The notes below the pieces were generated by a model, which was not told where the DNA came from, searched no databases, and was given only the letters and a program-made list of their open reading frames with translations. Of a stretch of 64,000 nt of DNA, positions 746-63,055 are shown in pieces. This DNA is from Bryobacterales bacterium (lineage in GTDB: Bacteria; Acidobacteriota; Terriglobia; Bryobacterales; Bryobacteraceae): NCBI GenBank assembly GCA_003166865.1, contig PMUP01000025.1:11549-75548 (forward strand), read 5' to 3'. Each line of letters opens with the position of its first letter. Within the stretch, counting starts at the first letter, position 1. The position numbers and the translations under genes were made by a program.

Positions 746-1759
746 ATGAGAATAGTTGCCGAGGCCCCCTGCCGAATCGACCTGGCCGGCGGCACCCTCG
801 ATATCTGGCCCCTGTACCTCTTTCATCCCGGCGCGGTCACGGTGAATTTCGCCATCAACCGCTATACACGCTGCGCGATTGAAACCCTTGGTTCCCCCGA
901 CATCCGCGTGCATTCCAACGATCTCAAGACGGCCGAGAATTTTGGATCGCTCGCGGAGCTCGATCGCGCCACCCGGCCCCGTCTGCCGCTGGCCGCCCAC
1001 TTGCTTCGTTTCTTCCGTCCGGGCACCGGTCTTGTCATGCACACGGATTCCGAAGCTCCCGCGGGCGCGGGCATCTCGGGATCCTCGGCGCTGCTGATCG
1101 CCGGCGCCAGCGCGCTCAATCGCCTCACCGGCTCCGGCCACAATCTCGAAAAGATCCGCGAGATCGCGCAGAACGTGGAAGCGCAAATCATCCGTGTGCC
1201 GGCGGGCGTGCAAGATTATTACCCGGCGCTGTACGGCGGCGTCAGCGCCATCGAACTCGGCGCCGGAGGCGTGCGTCGCGTCGCGATTCCCGTGGATCTC
1301 GACGACTTCAATCACCGCATCGTGCTCTGCTATACCGGCGCCCCCCGCAATTCCGGCATCAACAACTGGGAAGTGACCAAAGCCTATATCAATGGGGACT
1401 GCAAAATACAACGCAACTTCGCGCACATCGCCTCTATTGCATCCAGCATGCGCGTGGCTGTCAAAAACGCCGACTGGACCGAAGCCGGCCGTTTGCTGCG
1501 CGAAGAATGGTCGTACCGGCGCAAGAACGCGCCCGGCATTTCCACTCCCACGATCGATCATCTGGTCACAATTGCACGGCGCGCCGGCTCACTCGGCGCC
1601 AAAGTCTGCGGCGCGGGCGGCGGTGGTTGCGTGTTTTTCCTGGTCGAGCGCGGCGCTCAAGAGTGTGTATCGCGCGCCCTTCGGAAAGCCGGCGGCGAAA
1701 TCCTGCCCGTGCAAGTGGCCGCTCGCGGTGTCAAAATTCGAACAGGACCCCGGATTTAG
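746..1759 (+). CDS. GHMP-family sugar kinase
   Basis: The 337-residue product begins MRIVAEAPCRIDLAGG, the N-terminal GHMP substrate/nucleotide segment, and carries the ATP-binding motif APAGAGISGSSALL about 110 residues in (family pattern P-x3-G-L/I-x-S-S-A). A Gly-rich C-terminal motif KVCGAGGGGCVFFL completes the fold. Such kinases phosphorylate galactose, heptose-7-phosphate or similar sugars; the IDLAGGTLD opening resembles heptose-7-phosphate kinase relatives, but the substrate cannot be fixed. An upstream in-frame start at 680 adds 22 residues without family similarity, so the ATG at 746 is preferred. It ends 3 bases before the SirB1-like gene, suggesting co-transcription. Confidence 0.85.
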   Translation: MRIVAEAPCRIDLAGGTLDIWPLYLFHPGAVTVNFAINRYTRCAIETLGSPDIRVHSNDLKTAENFGSLAELDRATRPRLPLAAHLLRFFRPGTGLVMHTDSEAPAGAGISGSSALLIAGASALNRLTGSGHNLEKIREIAQNVEAQIIRVPAGVQDYYPALYGGVSAIELGAGGVRRVAIPVDLDDFNHRIVLCYTGAPRNSGINNWEVTKAYINGDCKIQRNFAHIASIASSMRVAVKNADWTEAGRLLREEWSYRRKNAPGISTPTIDHLVTIARRAGSLGAKVCGAGGGGCVFFLVERGAQECVSRALRKAGGEILPVQVAARGVKIRTGPRI

Positions 1760-45640: not shown

Positions 45641-46150
45641 CTAGGTCAGCTCGAAAAATGCGGCCACGGGAGTGGAGAAGCCGGGCAGGGTTGCATCTTC
45701 GATGATCTGATCGGCCTTTGCTCGGTGGATTGAATCGGCAAGGTGGACCATAACGGACCGGGCGTCTGGATAAACAACCCATACTGATTTAGAGCCGTGA
45801 CTTAAATACACGTCAATCTTTTGTCTTAGATGGATCTCAAGGTCGGTCGGCGAAATAACTTCGATAGCCAAATCGGGGGCGCCTTGGATATACGTGTCCC
45901 TGGGGTCCAGGCGGGCGAGAGCCACCACGCTAATGTCAGGCACGAAAACGTTGCCGGGACTGGCAACGAACGCTGTGAGCGGCAGTACCTTCAGGCCAAG
46001 GCTGCGGTTGGCAGAAATATAGGCAAACAGAATCTCCAAAAGGTTATTACGGATGATGTCGTGCTGCGCTGGTGGCGGAGGCTGAGTAGCCTCGGGCATC
46101 GCCAGGAACTGACCGGACGTGAGGAGGGTGGTCGCCGCCATCGCTACCAT
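45641..46150 (-). CDS. Uma2/DUF820-family putative endonuclease
   Basis: The 169-residue protein has the Uma2 fold of the PD-(D/E)XK type: NNLLEILFAYISANRSLG, VPDISVVALARL (acidic metal site), LAIEVISPTDLEIHLRQKID and VWVVYPDARSVMVHL. These are widespread, often multicopy proteins of unknown function in Acidobacteriota and cyanobacteria. ATGs at 46150 and 46141 are both plausible. It follows cimA by 29 bases on the same strand. Confidence 0.82.
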   Translation of the reverse strand: MVAMAATTLLTSGQFLAMPEATQPPPPAQHDIIRNNLLEILFAYISANRSLGLKVLPLTAFVASPGNVFVPDISVVALARLDPRDTYIQGAPDLAIEVISPTDLEIHLRQKIDVYLSHGSKSVWVVYPDARSVMVHLADSIHRAKADQIIEDATLPGFSTPVAAFFELT

Positions 46151-46179
46151 TCTAGCGCGCAGGGCTGAACTGTCGGAGC

Positions 46180-47778
46180 TCAAACGCCCCAACAGTAGTC
46201 TTCCACAACCTTGTCGACGTTTTCGTCTTGCTCGGTCAGGCGCATCAACTCCAGGCGGATAGCGTCCACCAGCGCGCCCCAGCTCGCTTCGATTACGTTG
46301 TCGGAGACGCCGACGGTGGCCCAGCTCCGGCGATGATCCGACCATTCGACCAGCACCCGAACCTTCGCGGCCGTGCCCTTCTTGGGTTCCAGCACGCGAA
46401 CCTTGTAGTCGGTCAGCCGGACGTCTTTCACCTGCGGATACACATTGGAAAGGCACTGGCGCAGGCACAAATCGAGCGCGTTCATGGGACCTTGGCCGGT
46501 GGCGCTGGCCGTATGAACGCTGTCTTGGATGCGCAGCGTGACCGTGGCCGTCGTTCCGCCCACCAGCCGCGTGGTGACGTCGTAGTTCACCACATCGAAG
46601 ACGCTCCAGCCGGGATGCAGCGCCTCGCGGACCAGCAGCTCGAAAGTGCCTTCGGCCGCCTCCAGTTCATAGCCCTGATGTTCCAGGTCCTTGATGCGTT
46701 CCAGCAATTGGCGCCGCGCATCGGCATCCAGACGCTCGGCCAATCCGTGCTGCTTCAATTTGTAGAGCACATTGCCGCGGCCCGACAGATCGCTGAGCAG
46801 AACACGCTGCCGGTTGCCGATCGTCTCCGGTTTTACGTGCTCGTATGTCGACGAATCTTTCAACACAGCGCTGACATGCACGCCCCCTTTGTGGGCAAAC
46901 GCGCTGTGGCCGACGTACGGCTGATCGTTGCGCATCGGCAGATTCGCCAGCTCGGCGATGTAGCGCGCCGCCGTGCTCAACGTTTGCAAATTTTCCTTAC
47001 CGATCGTGGTGTGGCCAAGCTTCAGTTCGAGATTCGCGATGATCGACACCAGGTTCGCGTTGCCGCAGCGCTCGCCATAGCCGTTGATGCAGCCTTGCAC
47101 ATGCGTGCAGCCGGCTTCCACCGCGGCCATCGTATTGGCCACCGCGACATCGCAATCGTTGTGCGTGTGGATGCCGATCACGCCATCGAACCGCTTGCGG
47201 ACTTCCGAGACCACTTCCACGATCCGGTGCGTGAGGTTGCCGCCGTTGGTGTCGCATAGGCAGAGCACATCGGCGCCCGCCTTTTTCGCGGCTTCCAGCG
47301 TGCGCAGCGCGAACTCGGCGTTGGCGTTATAACCGTCGAAGAAGTGCTCGGCGTCGTACACGACTTCGCGGCCGTGGTCTTTCAGATATTTTACGGTCTC
47401 CCCGATCAGCTTCAGATTCTGCCCTTCGTCGATGCCCAGCGCCCGACGGACATGCAGATCCCAGCTCTTGCCGAAAATGGAGATTGCCGGGGTCTCCGCA
47501 TCCAGCAGCGCTCGCACGTTCGGATCCTGTTCCACCGTGTTCTTCGCGAAGCGCGTGGAGCCGAACGCCGTCAGCCGGGCGTGCTTGAACTTGACGTCTT
47601 GGGCGCGCTTGAAAAACTCCTTGTCCTTCGGATTGGAGTTGGGCCATCCGCCCTCAATGTAGTCGATCCCCAGCTCGTCCAGCTTCTGCGCGATGATGAG
47701 TTTGTCGTCGACAGAGAATGAGACAGCCTCGCCCTGAGTGCCATCCCGGAGCGTTGTATCGAAAGTTTGAATGCGCAT
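46180..47778 (-). CDS. cimA: (R)-citramalate synthase
   Basis: The 532-residue enzyme condenses acetyl-CoA and pyruvate to citramalate, the threonine-independent entry to isoleucine. The catalytic barrel shows DTTLRDGTQGEAVSF, HTHNDCDVAVANTMAAV and the GYGERCGNANL loop; the C-terminal about 150 residues form a LeuA-type allosteric domain. The CimA-type length (about 530) and the ilv context favour it over 2-isopropylmalate synthase. It follows ilvC by 4 bases. Isoleucine feedback is expected from the family. Confidence 0.9.
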   Translation of the reverse strand: MRIQTFDTTLRDGTQGEAVSFSVDDKLIIAQKLDELGIDYIEGGWPNSNPKDKEFFKRAQDVKFKHARLTAFGSTRFAKNTVEQDPNVRALLDAETPAISIFGKSWDLHVRRALGIDEGQNLKLIGETVKYLKDHGREVVYDAEHFFDGYNANAEFALRTLEAAKKAGADVLCLCDTNGGNLTHRIVEVVSEVRKRFDGVIGIHTHNDCDVAVANTMAAVEAGCTHVQGCINGYGERCGNANLVSIIANLELKLGHTTIGKENLQTLSTAARYIAELANLPMRNDQPYVGHSAFAHKGGVHVSAVLKDSSTYEHVKPETIGNRQRVLLSDLSGRGNVLYKLKQHGLAERLDADARRQLLERIKDLEHQGYELEAAEGTFELLVREALHPGWSVFDVVNYDVTTRLVGGTTATVTLRIQDSVHTASATGQGPMNALDLCLRQCLSNVYPQVKDVRLTDYKVRVLEPKKGTAAKVRVLVEWSDHRRSWATVGVSDNVIEASWGALVDAIRLELMRLTEQDENVDKVVEDYCWGV

Positions 47779-47782
47779 GGAA

Positions 47783-48832
<1,050 letters not shown>

Positions 48833-48845
48833 CTAATGTGTCTTT

Positions 48846-49400
48846 CTAGTGTCTCGTTTCCAGTTTCTCGTCCGCTTCGTCCACTGCCGCGTTGCGCGGA
48901 ACGGGGGGCGCAAGGCGCAGCTTCTTGGCTTCCAGTGAAATCGCCAACGCACCCGAGCGCGTCACTTCGATTTCGCCATAGCTGCGCATCACGTCCAGAA
49001 ATTCGTCCAGCTTCTCGGAATCGCCCGTAACTTCCAACGCAAAGCCCTCGGTGGATGAATCCACCACGCGAGCGCCGAAGATCTCCGCCTCTTTCAGGAT
49101 GGCCGTGCGGCTGGCCAGCGGCGCGCGCACGCGCAGCAGCGCCATTTCGCGTTTGACGGCTGGCGAGTCAGTGAGGTCTGAAGCCTGCAGGACGTTGACG
49201 AGCTTGTTCATCTGCTTGATCACTTGCGAGCGCAGTTGCGGCTCAATGTCGACCACGATCGTCATTCGCGACAGCGTCGGGTCCAGCGTCCGAGCGACAG
49301 TCAAACTCTCGATGTTGTAACCGCGCGCGCTCAAAAGGCCCGTGATGCGCATCAGCGCACCCGGTTTATTTTCCACCAGCAGTGAAATCAGTTGCAGCAT
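48846..49400 (-). CDS. ilvN: acetolactate synthase small (regulatory) subunit
   Basis: The 184-residue subunit starts with an ACT domain (ISLLVENKPGALMRITGLLSARG, NIESLTV), the valine-feedback site, followed by the C-terminal activation domain (FGARVVDSSTEGFALEVTGD). It is placed 9 bases after ilvB, as usual. The last about 25 residues (PPVPRNAAVDEADEKLETRH) are acidic and nonconserved. Confidence 0.94.
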   Translation of the reverse strand: MLQLISLLVENKPGALMRITGLLSARGYNIESLTVARTLDPTLSRMTIVVDIEPQLRSQVIKQMNKLVNVLQASDLTDSPAVKREMALLRVRAPLASRTAILKEAEIFGARVVDSSTEGFALEVTGDSEKLDEFLDVMRSYGEIEVTRSGALAISLEAKKLRLAPPVPRNAAVDEADEKLETRH

Positions 49401-49409
49401 CTTCGGCCC

Positions 49410-51173
49410 CTACGCTTCCACCGGTTGCGGCGGTCCCAACACCATCTCGTTGATCGCCCCGCCCGCCGGCACCATGGGATATACGTTCTCATATCGCGCC
49501 ACGCGCACATTCAAAAGGTACGGACCGGGCTCGCGCACCGCTTCCTCGAGCGCCGGAGCGAGCTGATGCGCACCGTCAATGGTCCGGCCTTTGAATCCGT
49601 AGGCCGCGGCCAGCTTCTCGGCGTCCGGGAAGGAGTTCAGTTCGGCCTGGGATATTCGGTTGTTATAGAACAGCTCCTGCCATTGGCGGATCATTCCCAG
49701 ATAGCCGTTATTCACAACAATGATCTTGATCGGCAGCGCGTGATTCGCGATGGTGGCGAGCTCGGGAATCGACATCTGGAAGCCACCGTCGCCCACGATG
49801 GAGAACACCAGCTTGTCGGGGCGCGCGAATTGCGCTCCGATGGCGGCCGGCAGGCCAAAGCCCATCGCGCCCAGTCCGCCCGAGTTGATCCACAGGCGCG
49901 GCGAGTTGAAGCGGATGAACTGCGCCGCCCACATCTGGTGCTGGCCGACGTCGGACGTCACGATGGCTCGGCCGCCCGAAAGCCGATCGATTTCACGCAT
50001 CACATGCTGCGGTTTGATCTCGCTGGTGGACACTTCCGGCAACAGCGGATGCTCGGCTTTCCAATCGTGAATCTGACGCCACCAATCGGCGCGCGCGGGC
50101 GCATTCTGTTCTCGGGCTTGCGGCGCCAATTCGTGCAGAACTTTGTTCAGTTTATCGAGCACCCGCTTGACGTCGCCCACGATGGGCAGATCGGCCACGC
50201 GGTTCTTGCCGATTTCCGCCGGATCGATATCCACGTGGATCACCTTGGCATGCGGTGCGAACGCCGCCAGGCGGCCTGTCACGCGGTCGTCAAAGCGAAC
50301 GCCCAAAGCGATCAACAGATCCGCGCCCGACATGCCCATGTTGGACGCATAGCTGCCATGCATGCCCGGCATGCTGATGTAGTTCGGATGCTCGGCCGGC
50401 AATCCGCCCAGCCCCATCAGGGTGGTGACCGCGGGTGCATCCACCAGTTCCACGAACTCGCGCAGTTCCTCGGATGCGTCCGCCGCGATGATGCCGCCGC
50501 CCGCGTATACGAATGGCCGCCGCGATTCCCAGATCATCTGCGCCGCGCGCCGGATTTGGCCGGTGTGACCCTCGGTGAAAACCTTGTACCCCGGCAGATG
50601 GATGGACGAAACGGGGGTGTAGTGCGCCTGGGCTTGGAAGACGTCCTTGGGAATGTCGACGAGCACGGGACCCGGCCGTCCGCTCGACGCAATGTAGAAC
50701 GCCTCGTGAACCACTTGCGGCAGTTCCGCGATGGTCTTCACCAGGAAATTGTGTTTCGTGCAAGAGCGCGTGATGCCGAACGTGTCGGCTTCCTGAAACG
50801 CATCGCTGCCGATCAGTTTGGTCGAAACCTGGCCCGTGATCGCGACCACTGGAATGGAATCCATCATCGAATCCACCAGCCCGGTCACCAGATTCGTGGC
50901 GCCGGGACCGGACGTGGCGCAGCAAACACCCACTCGTCCAGTGGATCGGGCATAACCCTCGGCCGCGAATGCCGCGTTCTGTTCGTGCCGCACCAGAATG
51001 TGGCGGATCGGATGGTCATAAAGAGCGTCATACAACGGCAGCGTGACGCCTCCCGGGTAGCCGAAAATGCAATCTACATTCTCGCGAACCAGACATTCCA
51101 GAAGAATCTGGGAGCCGGACATCAGTTTCGATTCCGTCACGCCGCTCGTTCGATGCACTGTGCTCGTCGACAT
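49410..51173 (-). CDS. ilvB: acetolactate synthase large (catalytic) subunit
   Basis: The 587-residue ThDP enzyme forms acetolactate or acetohydroxybutyrate. Landmarks: catalytic Glu region IFGYPGGVTLPLYDALYDHP with RHEQNAAFAAEGYAR, FAD/linker domain with GGGIIAADA, and C-terminal ThDP site VGDGGFQMSIPELATI with VVNNGYLGMIRQWQ. The ATG has a strong GGGAGGATAG ribosome site. It is first in ilvB-ilvN-ilvC-cimA and downstream of the attenuator. Confidence 0.96.
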   Translation of the reverse strand: MSTSTVHRTSGVTESKLMSGSQILLECLVRENVDCIFGYPGGVTLPLYDALYDHPIRHILVRHEQNAAFAAEGYARSTGRVGVCCATSGPGATNLVTGLVDSMMDSIPVVAITGQVSTKLIGSDAFQEADTFGITRSCTKHNFLVKTIAELPQVVHEAFYIASSGRPGPVLVDIPKDVFQAQAHYTPVSSIHLPGYKVFTEGHTGQIRRAAQMIWESRRPFVYAGGGIIAADASEELREFVELVDAPAVTTLMGLGGLPAEHPNYISMPGMHGSYASNMGMSGADLLIALGVRFDDRVTGRLAAFAPHAKVIHVDIDPAEIGKNRVADLPIVGDVKRVLDKLNKVLHELAPQAREQNAPARADWWRQIHDWKAEHPLLPEVSTSEIKPQHVMREIDRLSGGRAIVTSDVGQHQMWAAQFIRFNSPRLWINSGGLGAMGFGLPAAIGAQFARPDKLVFSIVGDGGFQMSIPELATIANHALPIKIIVVNNGYLGMIRQWQELFYNNRISQAELNSFPDAEKLAAAYGFKGRTIDGAHQLAPALEEAVREPGPYLLNVRVARYENVYPMVPAGGAINEMVLGPPQPVEA

Positions 51174-51198: not shown

Positions 51199-51249
51199 AA
51201 AAATCAAAAGGCCACCGAGTGGTTTTTCTTTCCCCACCCGATGGCCTTT
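51199..51249 (-). terminator. intrinsic terminator of the ilv attenuator
   Basis: On the minus strand a 16-bp stem (arms AAAGGCCATCGGGTGG and CCACTCGGTGGCCTTT, fully paired with two G-U wobbles) encloses an 11-base A/G-rich loop and is followed by TGATTTTT. It lies 25 bases before the ilvB start, so it would end transcription before the structural genes. Confidence 0.9.
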
Positions 51250-51271
51250 CGGAAACTGTTGTCCGAAGCCC

Positions 51272-51376
51272 TCAAGCGGGGCTGGGTACTACGACCGTAA
51301 TAAGAATAGGCCGGAGCTTCGGAACTTGACCACTTGAAAAGGCAGACGCATTCGTACCCGGTAAAGTACGCGACAC
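51272..51376 (-). CDS. ilv operon leader peptide
   Basis: A 34-residue peptide starts at GTG (51376) with GAAAGGG about 9 bases upstream and ends PILITVVVPSPA at a TGA. Seven consecutive codons are I-L-I-T-V-V-V, an enrichment for the amino acids made by the operon plus threonine, the isoleucine precursor. It has no other family likeness. Together with the overlapping hairpins it forms an attenuator. Too short for normal gene finders. The GTG start is inferred from the ribosome site; the stalling function is inferred. Confidence 0.82.
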   Translation of the reverse strand: MSRTLPGTNASAFSSGQVPKLRPILITVVVPSPA

Positions 51377-51492
51377 GTCAATTTGCCCTTTCAACGTGAT
51401 CATTGGATTTAGATTATCGTAGCAGCGTGGCAAATGCAAGGGGGTGTTTGTATAAATTCTGTTAATCCAAGCATTCGCGCCGGCCTATGCAT

Positions 51493-51537: not shown

Positions 51538-51819
51538 ATGCCAAGAAGAGCGGTTGAAGACAATAGCCGGATGTCCCTGCGGATTCGCGCCGAGGAAAAA
51601 GCGCTGCTCTTGCGCGCGGTGGCGCTGAACAATACGGACCTTACGGATTTTGTCCTTCGTCACGCCTTACTTGCCGCCAAGTCCGTCATCGAGGCGGCGG
51701 ATCACGTGCAGCTCTCTGCGAGGGACAGTTCACGGGTTCTCGATCTGCTGGAGAATCCGCCTCCGCCTAACGCGAAACTGCTGGCGGCTGCTCGGGCTTT
51801 GCCAAAGCGACGATCATAA
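51538..51819 (+). CDS. DUF1778 (TacA-type) antitoxin
   Basis: The 93-residue protein has an N-terminal ribbon-helix-helix DNA-binding segment (MSLRIRAEEKALLLRAVALN, TDLTDFVLRHAL) and a C-terminal toxin-binding tail (LENPPPPNAKLLAAARALPKR), the TacA layout. It is followed after 2 bases by a GNAT acetyltransferase, the matching toxin. It should bind the inverted repeat upstream. The ATG follows a TTAGGAGTC ribosome site. Confidence 0.9.
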   Translation: MPRRAVEDNSRMSLRIRAEEKALLLRAVALNNTDLTDFVLRHALLAAKSVIEAADHVQLSARDSSRVLDLLENPPPPNAKLLAAARALPKRRS

Positions 51820-51821
51820 TC

Positions 51822-52343
51822 GTGGCGGCGTGGCACGAAGAGCCGATTACCAAGAAACATGACCGCGAAGCCTTCGACTGCGGCGAAGAAGCGCTGAATG
51901 AATTCTTGCGCCGTCACGCCCGCAAGAGCCACGAACTGGGCGGCGCGAAAACGTTCCTTGCCATTGATGATGCCGACAACAAAACCATTCTCGGATTCTA
52001 TAGTCTCAGCCCCGCTTCGGTTGACCATGCCCGAACGCCGGAGATTGCACGACGGGCGTTAGCGCGCCATGACGTTCCGGGCTTCCGCTTGGCGCGCCTG
52101 GCGGTGGATCGCAGGCTGCAGGGGCAGGGAATTGGCGGACAACTTCTCCTCGCGGCGGGGAGACGCTGCTTGTTGGCCGCAGCGGAGGTTGGCGGCGTGG
52201 TGCTTGTCATCGACGCCAAGAATGAAAGAGTAGCCGGATGGTACGCCAGCTATGGCGCTGTGCCGCTGCTGGACGCTCCGTTATCTCTGATGCTTCCGCT
52301 CGCGACAATCGAGGCCGCGCTCAAAAATGCCGGGAAATACTGA
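51822..52343 (+). CDS. GNAT-fold (TacT-type) toxin
   Basis: The 173-residue acetyltransferase has FDCGEEALNEFLRRHARKS, the N-terminal TacT-type signature, the acetyl-CoA loop RLQGQGIGGQLLLAA and GVVLVIDAKNERVAGWYASYG with the catalytic Tyr. TacT toxins acetylate the amino group of charged tRNA and block translation. The start is GTG, 2 bases after the antitoxin stop. Pairing with DUF1778 makes the toxin role likely; tRNA specificity is unknown. Confidence 0.9.
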   Translation: MAAWHEEPITKKHDREAFDCGEEALNEFLRRHARKSHELGGAKTFLAIDDADNKTILGFYSLSPASVDHARTPEIARRALARHDVPGFRLARLAVDRRLQGQGIGGQLLLAAGRRCLLAAAEVGGVVLVIDAKNERVAGWYASYGAVPLLDAPLSLMLPLATIEAALKNAGKY

Positions 52344-62657: not shown

Positions 62658-63035
62658 TTGGGCCTGTTGTACGGGTGGTCGCTCGCGGGCGAGCTTTACT
62701 CGCCGGCGGGAGGAAAGTCCGGTCTCCATAGGGCAGCATGCCGGCTAACGGCCGGGGGGGTTCGCTCAAAGCGGATTTCACGGAAAGTGCCACAGAAAAT
62801 ATACCGCCGGGGATTCGTGTGAAAGCTCGACATTCTCGGTAAGGGTGAAAAGGTGCGGTAAGAGCGCACCGCGGGCGGAGCGATCCGCCTGGCAGGGTAA
62901 ACCCCATGCGGAGCAAGACCAAATAGGGGAGGAGGGGCGGCCCGCTCCGTTCGACTCCCGGGTAGGTTGCTAGAGCTTGGCAGCAATGCCTCGCCCAGAG
63001 GAATGATCGCCGCCTTTCGGGGTACAGAAACCGGC

Positions 63036-63055
<20 letters not shown>
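62658..63055 (+). ncRNA. rnpB: RNase P RNA, bacterial type A
   Basis: The about 398-base RNA has terminal pairing TTGGGCCTG at the 5' end with CAGGCCCAA at the 3' end (helix P1). Conserved elements follow in order: GAGGAAAGTCCGG (62710-62722), GCCACAGAAA, the P12 hairpin with GGTAAGAGCGCACC, GAGGAATGATCGCC near 62999, and ACAGAAACCGGCTTAC (63024-63039). It is the catalytic subunit that trims tRNA 5' ends. Only about 45 bases separate it from the tautomerase ATG, so its promoter overlaps that gene. The 3' 20 bases overlap the histidine-kinase stop region. Confidence 0.93.

Follow-up and report, generated by a model that had tools for sequence, protein, structure and literature searches.

Architecture of the ilv locus

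The window, i.e., the whole stretch of 64,000 nucleotides that was analysed, carries the operon ilvB-ilvN-ilvC-cimA on its minus strand. An earlier, sequence-only reading of this DNA had proposed this operon, and NCBIfam, from which the four gene identities are taken, confirms it. ilvB (49410-51173), encoding the large subunit of acetolactate synthase, matches TIGR00118 with 792.5 bits at a cut-off of 538.35. It is followed by ilvN for the small subunit (48846-49400; TIGR00119 and NF008864 above cut-off), ilvC for ketol-acid reductoisomerase (47783-48826; NF004017 and TIGR00465 above cut-off), and cimA for citramalate synthase (46180-47778; TIGR00977, 698.9 bits at a cut-off of 450). The gene after cimA (45644-46468, minus strand) encodes a putative Uma2-like endonuclease. 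At the other end, a divergent plus-strand pair (51538-52343) adjoins the putative ilv promoter and comprises a TacA-like antitoxin (PF08681) and a GNAT acetyltransferase, likely a TacAT-type toxin-antitoxin system. A bacterial class A RNase P RNA lies at 62663-63054 on the plus strand (288.7 bits).

Upstream of ilvB, all on the minus strand, a promoter-like TTGCAT-N17-TAATCT (51411-51439) precedes an ATG by 7 nt, approximately where transcription is predicted to start. This ATG opens a leader reading frame of 43 codons plus TGA (51272-51403; MITLKGQIDVSRTLPGTNASAFSSGQVPKLRPILITVVVPSPA*), as read from the frame itself and from a comparison of starts and frames over 54 loci. The leader peptide ends in ..PILITVVVPSPA (longer form ..KLRPILITVVVPSPA) with its stop at 51272. 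Its candidate regulatory codons ATT CTT ATT ACG GTC GTA GTA (51287-51307) occupy positions -11 to -5 relative to the stop codon and encode the I-L-I-T-V-V-V run noticed earlier. The TGA (51274-51272) lies inside the 5' half of the antiterminator (51262-51281; CCCCGCT-TGA-GGGCTTCGGA), which is delimited by a covarying outer helix and by folding. The 3' half (51232-51253) includes the 5' arm of the terminator; the antiterminator helix includes CCCCGC:GGGUGGGG, and the hairpin is predicted at -30.5 kcal/mol with the ribosomal A site at codon -7. In the intrinsic terminator (51205-51251), 51251-51234 pairs with 51222-51205 around an 11-nt loop. The U-rich tail TTTTGATTTTT (51199-51209) follows, and 25 nt separate its end at 51199 from the ilvB start.

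The sequence-only reading had correctly placed the stop within the antiterminator segment and a terminator before a T-rich tail; it gave this terminator 16 bp, and 18 pairs, including wobbles, are counted here. It had confined the element to 51199-51376. These elements do lie there; however, the leader probably starts at the in-frame ATG at 51403 and not at the GTG at 51376, so that the element extends 27 to 63 nt past 51376, with the promoter-like pattern reaching 51439.

The folding z-score of the element is modest (-2.26, with 5 of 200 shuffles as good), and the case consequently rests on conservation. A simple promoter and terminator scan of the window called neither signal, because it permitted loops of 3-8 nt (11 here) and required a TTGACA-like -35 box. 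In the 6.67-Mb genome to which the window belongs (G000), the covariance model R1 finds one clear copy of the element; two further matches, at E 1.04 and 2.27, were regarded as fortuitous.

Conservation in the family

The comparison set comprises G000 and 60 further genomes of its family, 58 of the 61 having ilvB at threshold. The nearest named relatives are Bryobacterales/Acidobacteriia MAGs, which suggest that the family is Bryobacterales and fit the earlier guess of an Acidobacterium. Upstream regions of ilvB were read at 56 loci, leaving out G003 and G059, which begin inside the gene. A BCAA-rich leader and a terminator are present in 55 of these 56 (L045 and L061 corrected by eye), the exception being L025 with a decayed element. 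In the relatives, terminators were picked by at least five T in eight, and the stop of L045 was chosen by hand. Alignment A1 holds 54 of the 56 loci; L025 and L061, whose terminator was first mis-picked, are omitted, the latter being restored for the later swap and codon analyses.

An automated rule, i.e., a terminator plus a leader with at least seven I/L/V in its last 18 residues, is positive in 50 of the 56 family regions vs 0 of 1120 dinucleotide shuffles. Of the family's regions upstream of leuA and ilvD, 0 of 51 are positive (29 of 30 leuA and 22 of 30 ilvD; the other nine of 60 are truncated at a contig edge or belong to more distant homologues), a control weakened by the possibility that some of these genes sit inside operons. 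At E <=0.01, R1 has matches in 109 of the 121 family genomes, 82 of the 86 high-quality ones among them. Some matches stand before genes other than ilvB, and that in G040 is a terminator only, before an unrelated gene. When searched against 80 ilvB loci of named genomes, R1 gave a sole full-length match, in an Acidobacteriia MAG. Among the nearest named MAGs, two have an upstream region that could be read: L066 carries the element with 104.5 bits; in L065, the region upstream of ilvB lacks it and keeps the promoter pattern, and no cimA was found after ilvC.

Loss of the leader or the stems among relatives would have spoken against attenuation as proposed earlier, yet nearly all family loci keep both leader and terminator. 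Judging from sequence comparison and folding models, the element very probably controls transcription of the ilvBNC-cimA operon by ribosome-mediated attenuation. The likelihoods given to this reading and to its rivals below are not those of mutually exclusive cases and do not add up to one.

Two alternative helices covary

The two alternative pairings recognized in the sequence-only reading are both borne out by covariation. In the terminator, 91.5% of cells are paired over 54 aligned sequences and 8 of 14 pairs have changed on both sides, a covariation score equalled by 0 of 500 shuffles. In the outer helix of the antiterminator, 5 of 7 pairs have changed on both sides (12 cells); these pair-change counts are affected by seven rows of A1 (L026, L029, L038, L051, L056, L058, and L059) whose antiterminator is shifted by one column. 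A separate 1:2 protector hairpin finds no clear support: the one candidate pairing, GGUC:GGCC, is formed in 69.4% of cells, and its covariation score is equalled by 116 of 500 shuffles.

Moreover, over 87 elements the stop-overlapping arm pairs better with its own partner than with swapped partners, none of 3000 permutations being as good. This advantage also holds within the 35 non-canonical and the 19 most divergent arms. For the non-canonical arms the gain is small (4.60 of 8 with their own partner vs 4.26 with the canonical partner), and relatedness remains in the swap test. In L301, L313, and L314, the stop-overlapping arm pairs poorly with the terminator.

The same arm bears on the idea that the leader peptide itself acts, either by nascent-chain arrest in cis or in trans like peTrpL of Sinorhizobium meliloti, as described in the accessible part of PMC7298713, with tRNA supply playing no role. 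The C terminus is indeed strongly conserved, 51 of 59 leaders ending in Pro-Ala. However, the Pro-Ala codons are the antiterminator arm, and four loci (L029, L063, L051, and L308) have altered arm and peptide alike while retaining pairing with their own terminator. Further, the N-terminal parts of the leaders vary freely among relatives. We hence consider an acting peptide very unlikely.

Ribosome position and the proposed switch

To model stalling, a ribosome was set on each codon in turn and the RNA beyond it was folded as it stands before synthesis of the terminator 3' arm, a thermodynamic treatment with an assumed footprint. Over 53 loci (L014, whose stop lies 7 nt further upstream, is omitted), the mean predicted sequestration of the terminator 5' arm is 0.81 for codon -7, 0.72 for -6, and 0.56 for -5, and falls to 0.12-0.13 with the A site at -1 and at the stop. 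The window element follows this profile with 0.82 (-7), 0.82 (-6), 0.65 (-5), and 0.01 at both -1 and the stop. In these folds and in the compared sequences, antiterminator and terminator appear mutually exclusive, with the position of the ribosome setting which one would form.

Outside the clade with a split operon described below, Ile and Val are both present in 58 of 59 leaders. Ile is most frequent at codons -9 to -11 (38, 32, and 32 of 59) and Val at codons -7 and -5 (49 and 44 of 59). According to the sequestration profile, the Ile codons at -9 to -11 and the Val codon at -7 are well placed, whereas the conserved last Val at -5 is borderline, a stall there being predicted to give partial antitermination (0.56).

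The attenuator that we infer from this arrangement combines termination, ribosome stalling, leaderless initiation, and a response to Ile and Val. The transcript would begin with the leader start codon or a few bases ahead of it. With ample charged Ile- and Val-tRNA, the ribosome would proceed to the stop and cover CCCCGC(C/T)-UGA, the 5' half of the antiterminator; the terminator would then form and transcription end before ilvB. Masking of the leader RNA segment CCCCGCUUGA would thus be expected to cause termination. If Ile- or Val-tRNA runs short, the ribosome would instead stall at ATT, GTC, or GTA codons at least six codons upstream of the stop, the stop-overlapping segment would pair with the terminator 5' arm, and polymerase would enter the operon. 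Most likely, the operon is switched on by such a stall for lack of Ile or Val, as codon placement and modelled folding suggest.

Putative sensor codons separate in a clade with a split operon

The strongest evidence for the putative attenuator comes from the codons of leaders whose operon has lost cimA, the gene for the Ile-only step. In the 61-genome sample, ilvB and cimA share a contig in 50 genomes and are apart in G008 and G050; contig ends interrupt the region in two genomes, and in seven at least one of the two genes has no match. Genomes G035 and G026 carry second, more distant citramalate synthase homologues outside the ilv operon (G035:C236 and G026:C9; 57% and 47% identity). We read 21 cimA upstream stretches, from one genus and from suspect genomes. 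An attenuator precedes cimA in 13 of the 13 cases without ilvC in front (12 by rule; L271 by eye, its element being chosen by hand) and in 0 of the 8 upstream stretches with ilvC in front.

Between codons -15 and -5, the 13 stand-alone cimA leaders contain 3-5 Ile and 0-2 Val, whereas the ilvB leaders of the same clade contain 4-6 Val and 0-1 Ile. The latter numbers refer to the 10 elements kept among 13 ilvB upstream regions, those of L025, L302, and L304 having decayed; the ilvB and cimA sets, 13 each, overlap in 11 genomes. Both kinds of leader are richer in Leu (means of 2.2 and 1.5 vs 0.9 elsewhere). The split clade is single in the tree (support 99/87), and the codon shift is consequently one natural experiment, not 13, its outcome being maintained across many lineages; row-wise P values, which treat rows as independent, overstate it. 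Read in this way, the Ile and Val content of the leader follows the downstream enzymes.

This divergence weighs against the reading that the leader senses a general slowdown of translation and not Ile or Val specifically. Stalls anywhere from codon -7 upstream are predicted to give the same fold, as such a sensor would require. However, Ile and Val content has diverged with the downstream pathway after the split, and both residues favour set codon positions, which makes a general sensor a very improbable explanation.

Further copies occur in relatives. L269 and L275 have Ile-rich leaders before a second acetolactate synthase small-subunit gene, and L270 has one before an ACT-domain protein that falls below the small-subunit cut-off. 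L280 and L298 (G314 and G354) show an attenuator-like element before threonine ammonia-lyase (ilvA), each leader with 2 Ile codons; in the genus of these two, no copy was found at ilvB in three genomes (L309, L310, and L312). On balance, we favour a history in which the near-leaderless, family-wide Ile/Val attenuator was duplicated and its sensing divided as cimA left the operon, the ilvBNC copy turning to Val (and Leu) and the cimA copy to Ile. With the additional copies before the second small subunit and ilvA, this would amount to a small set of related attenuators.

Codon choice in the leader

Val codons of the leaders are GTA in 56% of cases vs 6% in 30 ilvB genes, and Ile codons are ATT in 60% vs 23%. 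Such a preference would fit the reading of particular tRNA isoacceptors. Leader codon bias is attributed to selective tRNA charging in the accessible portion of PMC1183508, where rarity alone is called an oversimplification.

The codons also bear on the notion that a ligand-binding riboswitch or T-box runs the terminator, with the small ORF incidental. A terminator/antiterminator pair exists, and ppGpp riboswitches, one such candidate, occur before ilvB in other bacteria according to the available text of PMC10272879. Yet no Rfam family reaches its gathering score at the element, and a search at E <=5 gave two unrelated matches near E 2, far under gathering. Moreover, it is the codons that form the conserved part: the frame is kept, Ile and Val track the enzyme, and certain synonymous codons are preferred. 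A riboswitch or T-box is thus an even less likely explanation than the two above, and a ribosome-mediated attenuator remains the preferred reading.

Leader start and putative promoter

Of 54 family loci, 47 have a TTGCAT-N16-18-TANNNT pattern ahead of the leader, vs 1 of 1080 shuffles; with looser criteria, a best site was obtained at every locus. In 24 loci, the distance from the -10 box to an ATG or GTG is exactly 6 or 7 nt, and each of these 24 codons is in frame with the leader stop; this spacing and constant frame suggest leaderless or nearly leaderless translation of the leader in those loci. In the remaining loci, 8 to 60 nt separate the -10 box from the first in-frame ATG or GTG.

The least probable reading, a plain unregulated terminator that insulates ilvB from upstream transcription, fits a terminator that is strong and widely present, but has no use for a promoter-like pattern before the leader or for a covarying alternative helix.

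Relation to known attenuators

The attenuators of Escherichia coli follow the classic plan, which includes a 1:2 hairpin as well as a ribosome-binding site, the ilvBN leader containing Val and Leu and the ilvGMEDA leader Ile, Val, and Leu codons. In both systems, leader codons match the operon products, as they do here. Both are named in PMC1183508.

The closest known system appears to be the ilvBNC attenuator of Corynebacterium glutamicum, followed by mycobacterial ilvB1 and the actinobacterial predictions in the available text of PMC1262725. As far as the accessible parts of PMC11857589 and PMC10272879 describe it (ilvL; ilvB-II motif), the C. glutamicum element likewise precedes ilvB-N-C in this order, has an Ile/Val leader including a GUA control codon, starts transcription one nt from the leader start, and possesses an antiterminator that overlaps the terminator. 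A near-leaderless leader peptide is therefore not new (PMC11857589). In contrast, the C. glutamicum peptide has 15 residues vs 43 here and belongs to another phylum, the two systems being compared by description. An anti-antiterminator is proposed there and is not clearly supported here; the acidobacterial operon adds cimA, and its antiterminator arm holds the leader stop.

In ilvB1-ilvN-ilvC of Mycobacterium tuberculosis, according to the portion available of PMC13236596, a BCAA-rich uORF with a GUA regulatory codon likewise precedes the genes, and the antiterminator is masked once the ribosome has reached the stop codon. This operon is actinobacterial and without cimA. Its 3' ends have been mapped experimentally, whereas the element described here is known from sequence, from which its leader, codons, helices and covariation, promoter-like pattern, gene context, and enzyme-tracking codon content are read.

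New here are the occurrence in Acidobacteria and the unusually clear record of how the sensor was split; the mechanism is ordinary and of a known kind. For such attenuation, the phylum is nearly undescribed. A survey of attenuation across bacteria by Lopatovskaya et al. in 2010 may include cases from Acidobacteria. In the accessible text of PMC2965389, attenuators are predicted in Acidobacteria by terminator analysis, almost none in phyla such as Acidobacteria having associated functions, and "ilv" is absent from its main text. Within the freely accessible literature on leader peptides and attenuation in Acidobacteria and Solibacter, the available parts of PMC2965389 and PMC4833913 do not describe the element. 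The attenuator proposed here would give a likely function to predicted attenuators of a large, little-studied phylum. It also provides an evolutionary test of the attenuation model, as cutting the operon between the shared and the Ile-only steps is accompanied by a corresponding separation of sensor codons in the daughter leaders. Additionally, the natural series of leaders lends itself to work on the influence of codon choice and stall position on the response.

Looser relatives in other acidobacterial families

Beyond the family, 63 acidobacterial ilvB upstream regions were analysed (62 sampled plus L149). The automated rule is positive in six (L149, L176, L178, L181, L194, and L204). A longer stretch adds L205 and L206, and inspection by eye adds L186, giving nine elements from six families. 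None of the 14 genomes from the next family in the class showed a leader of this kind.

In all nine, a segment on or close to the leader stop can pair with the terminator 5' arm, over 12 nt in L149, 9 in L205 and L194, 8 in L186 and L204, 7 in L178 and L181, and 6 in L176 and L206. Compared with shuffles, this length is clear for L149 (0 of 500 as long), L205 (4 of 500), and L194 (6 of 500), borderline for L204 (20 of 500), L186 (30 of 500), and L178 (32 of 500), and not clear for L206 (60 of 500), L181 (92 of 500), and L176 (129 of 500). From their sequences, the nine appear to be looser relatives of the family attenuator.

A phylum-wide search with R1 at E 0.1 gave matches, most of them weak, in 48 of 247 genomes. 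The four operon genes were looked for at 32 loci: three elements stand before ilvB (L144 and L147 of the family, and L149) and two before ilvN (L158 and L167). The latter two (G255 and G247), from a seventh family (f28), have a BCAA leader and a terminator before ilvN, followed by ilvB in L158 or ilvC in L167. Finally, L152 (G219, family f46; approximately 1480-1625, minus strand) combines a terminator with a Val-rich leader that contains two Phe codons (..VVFGFVGVVVLVVRPTG*) and precedes prephenate dehydratase and ilvD, possibly a mixed Phe/Val attenuator.
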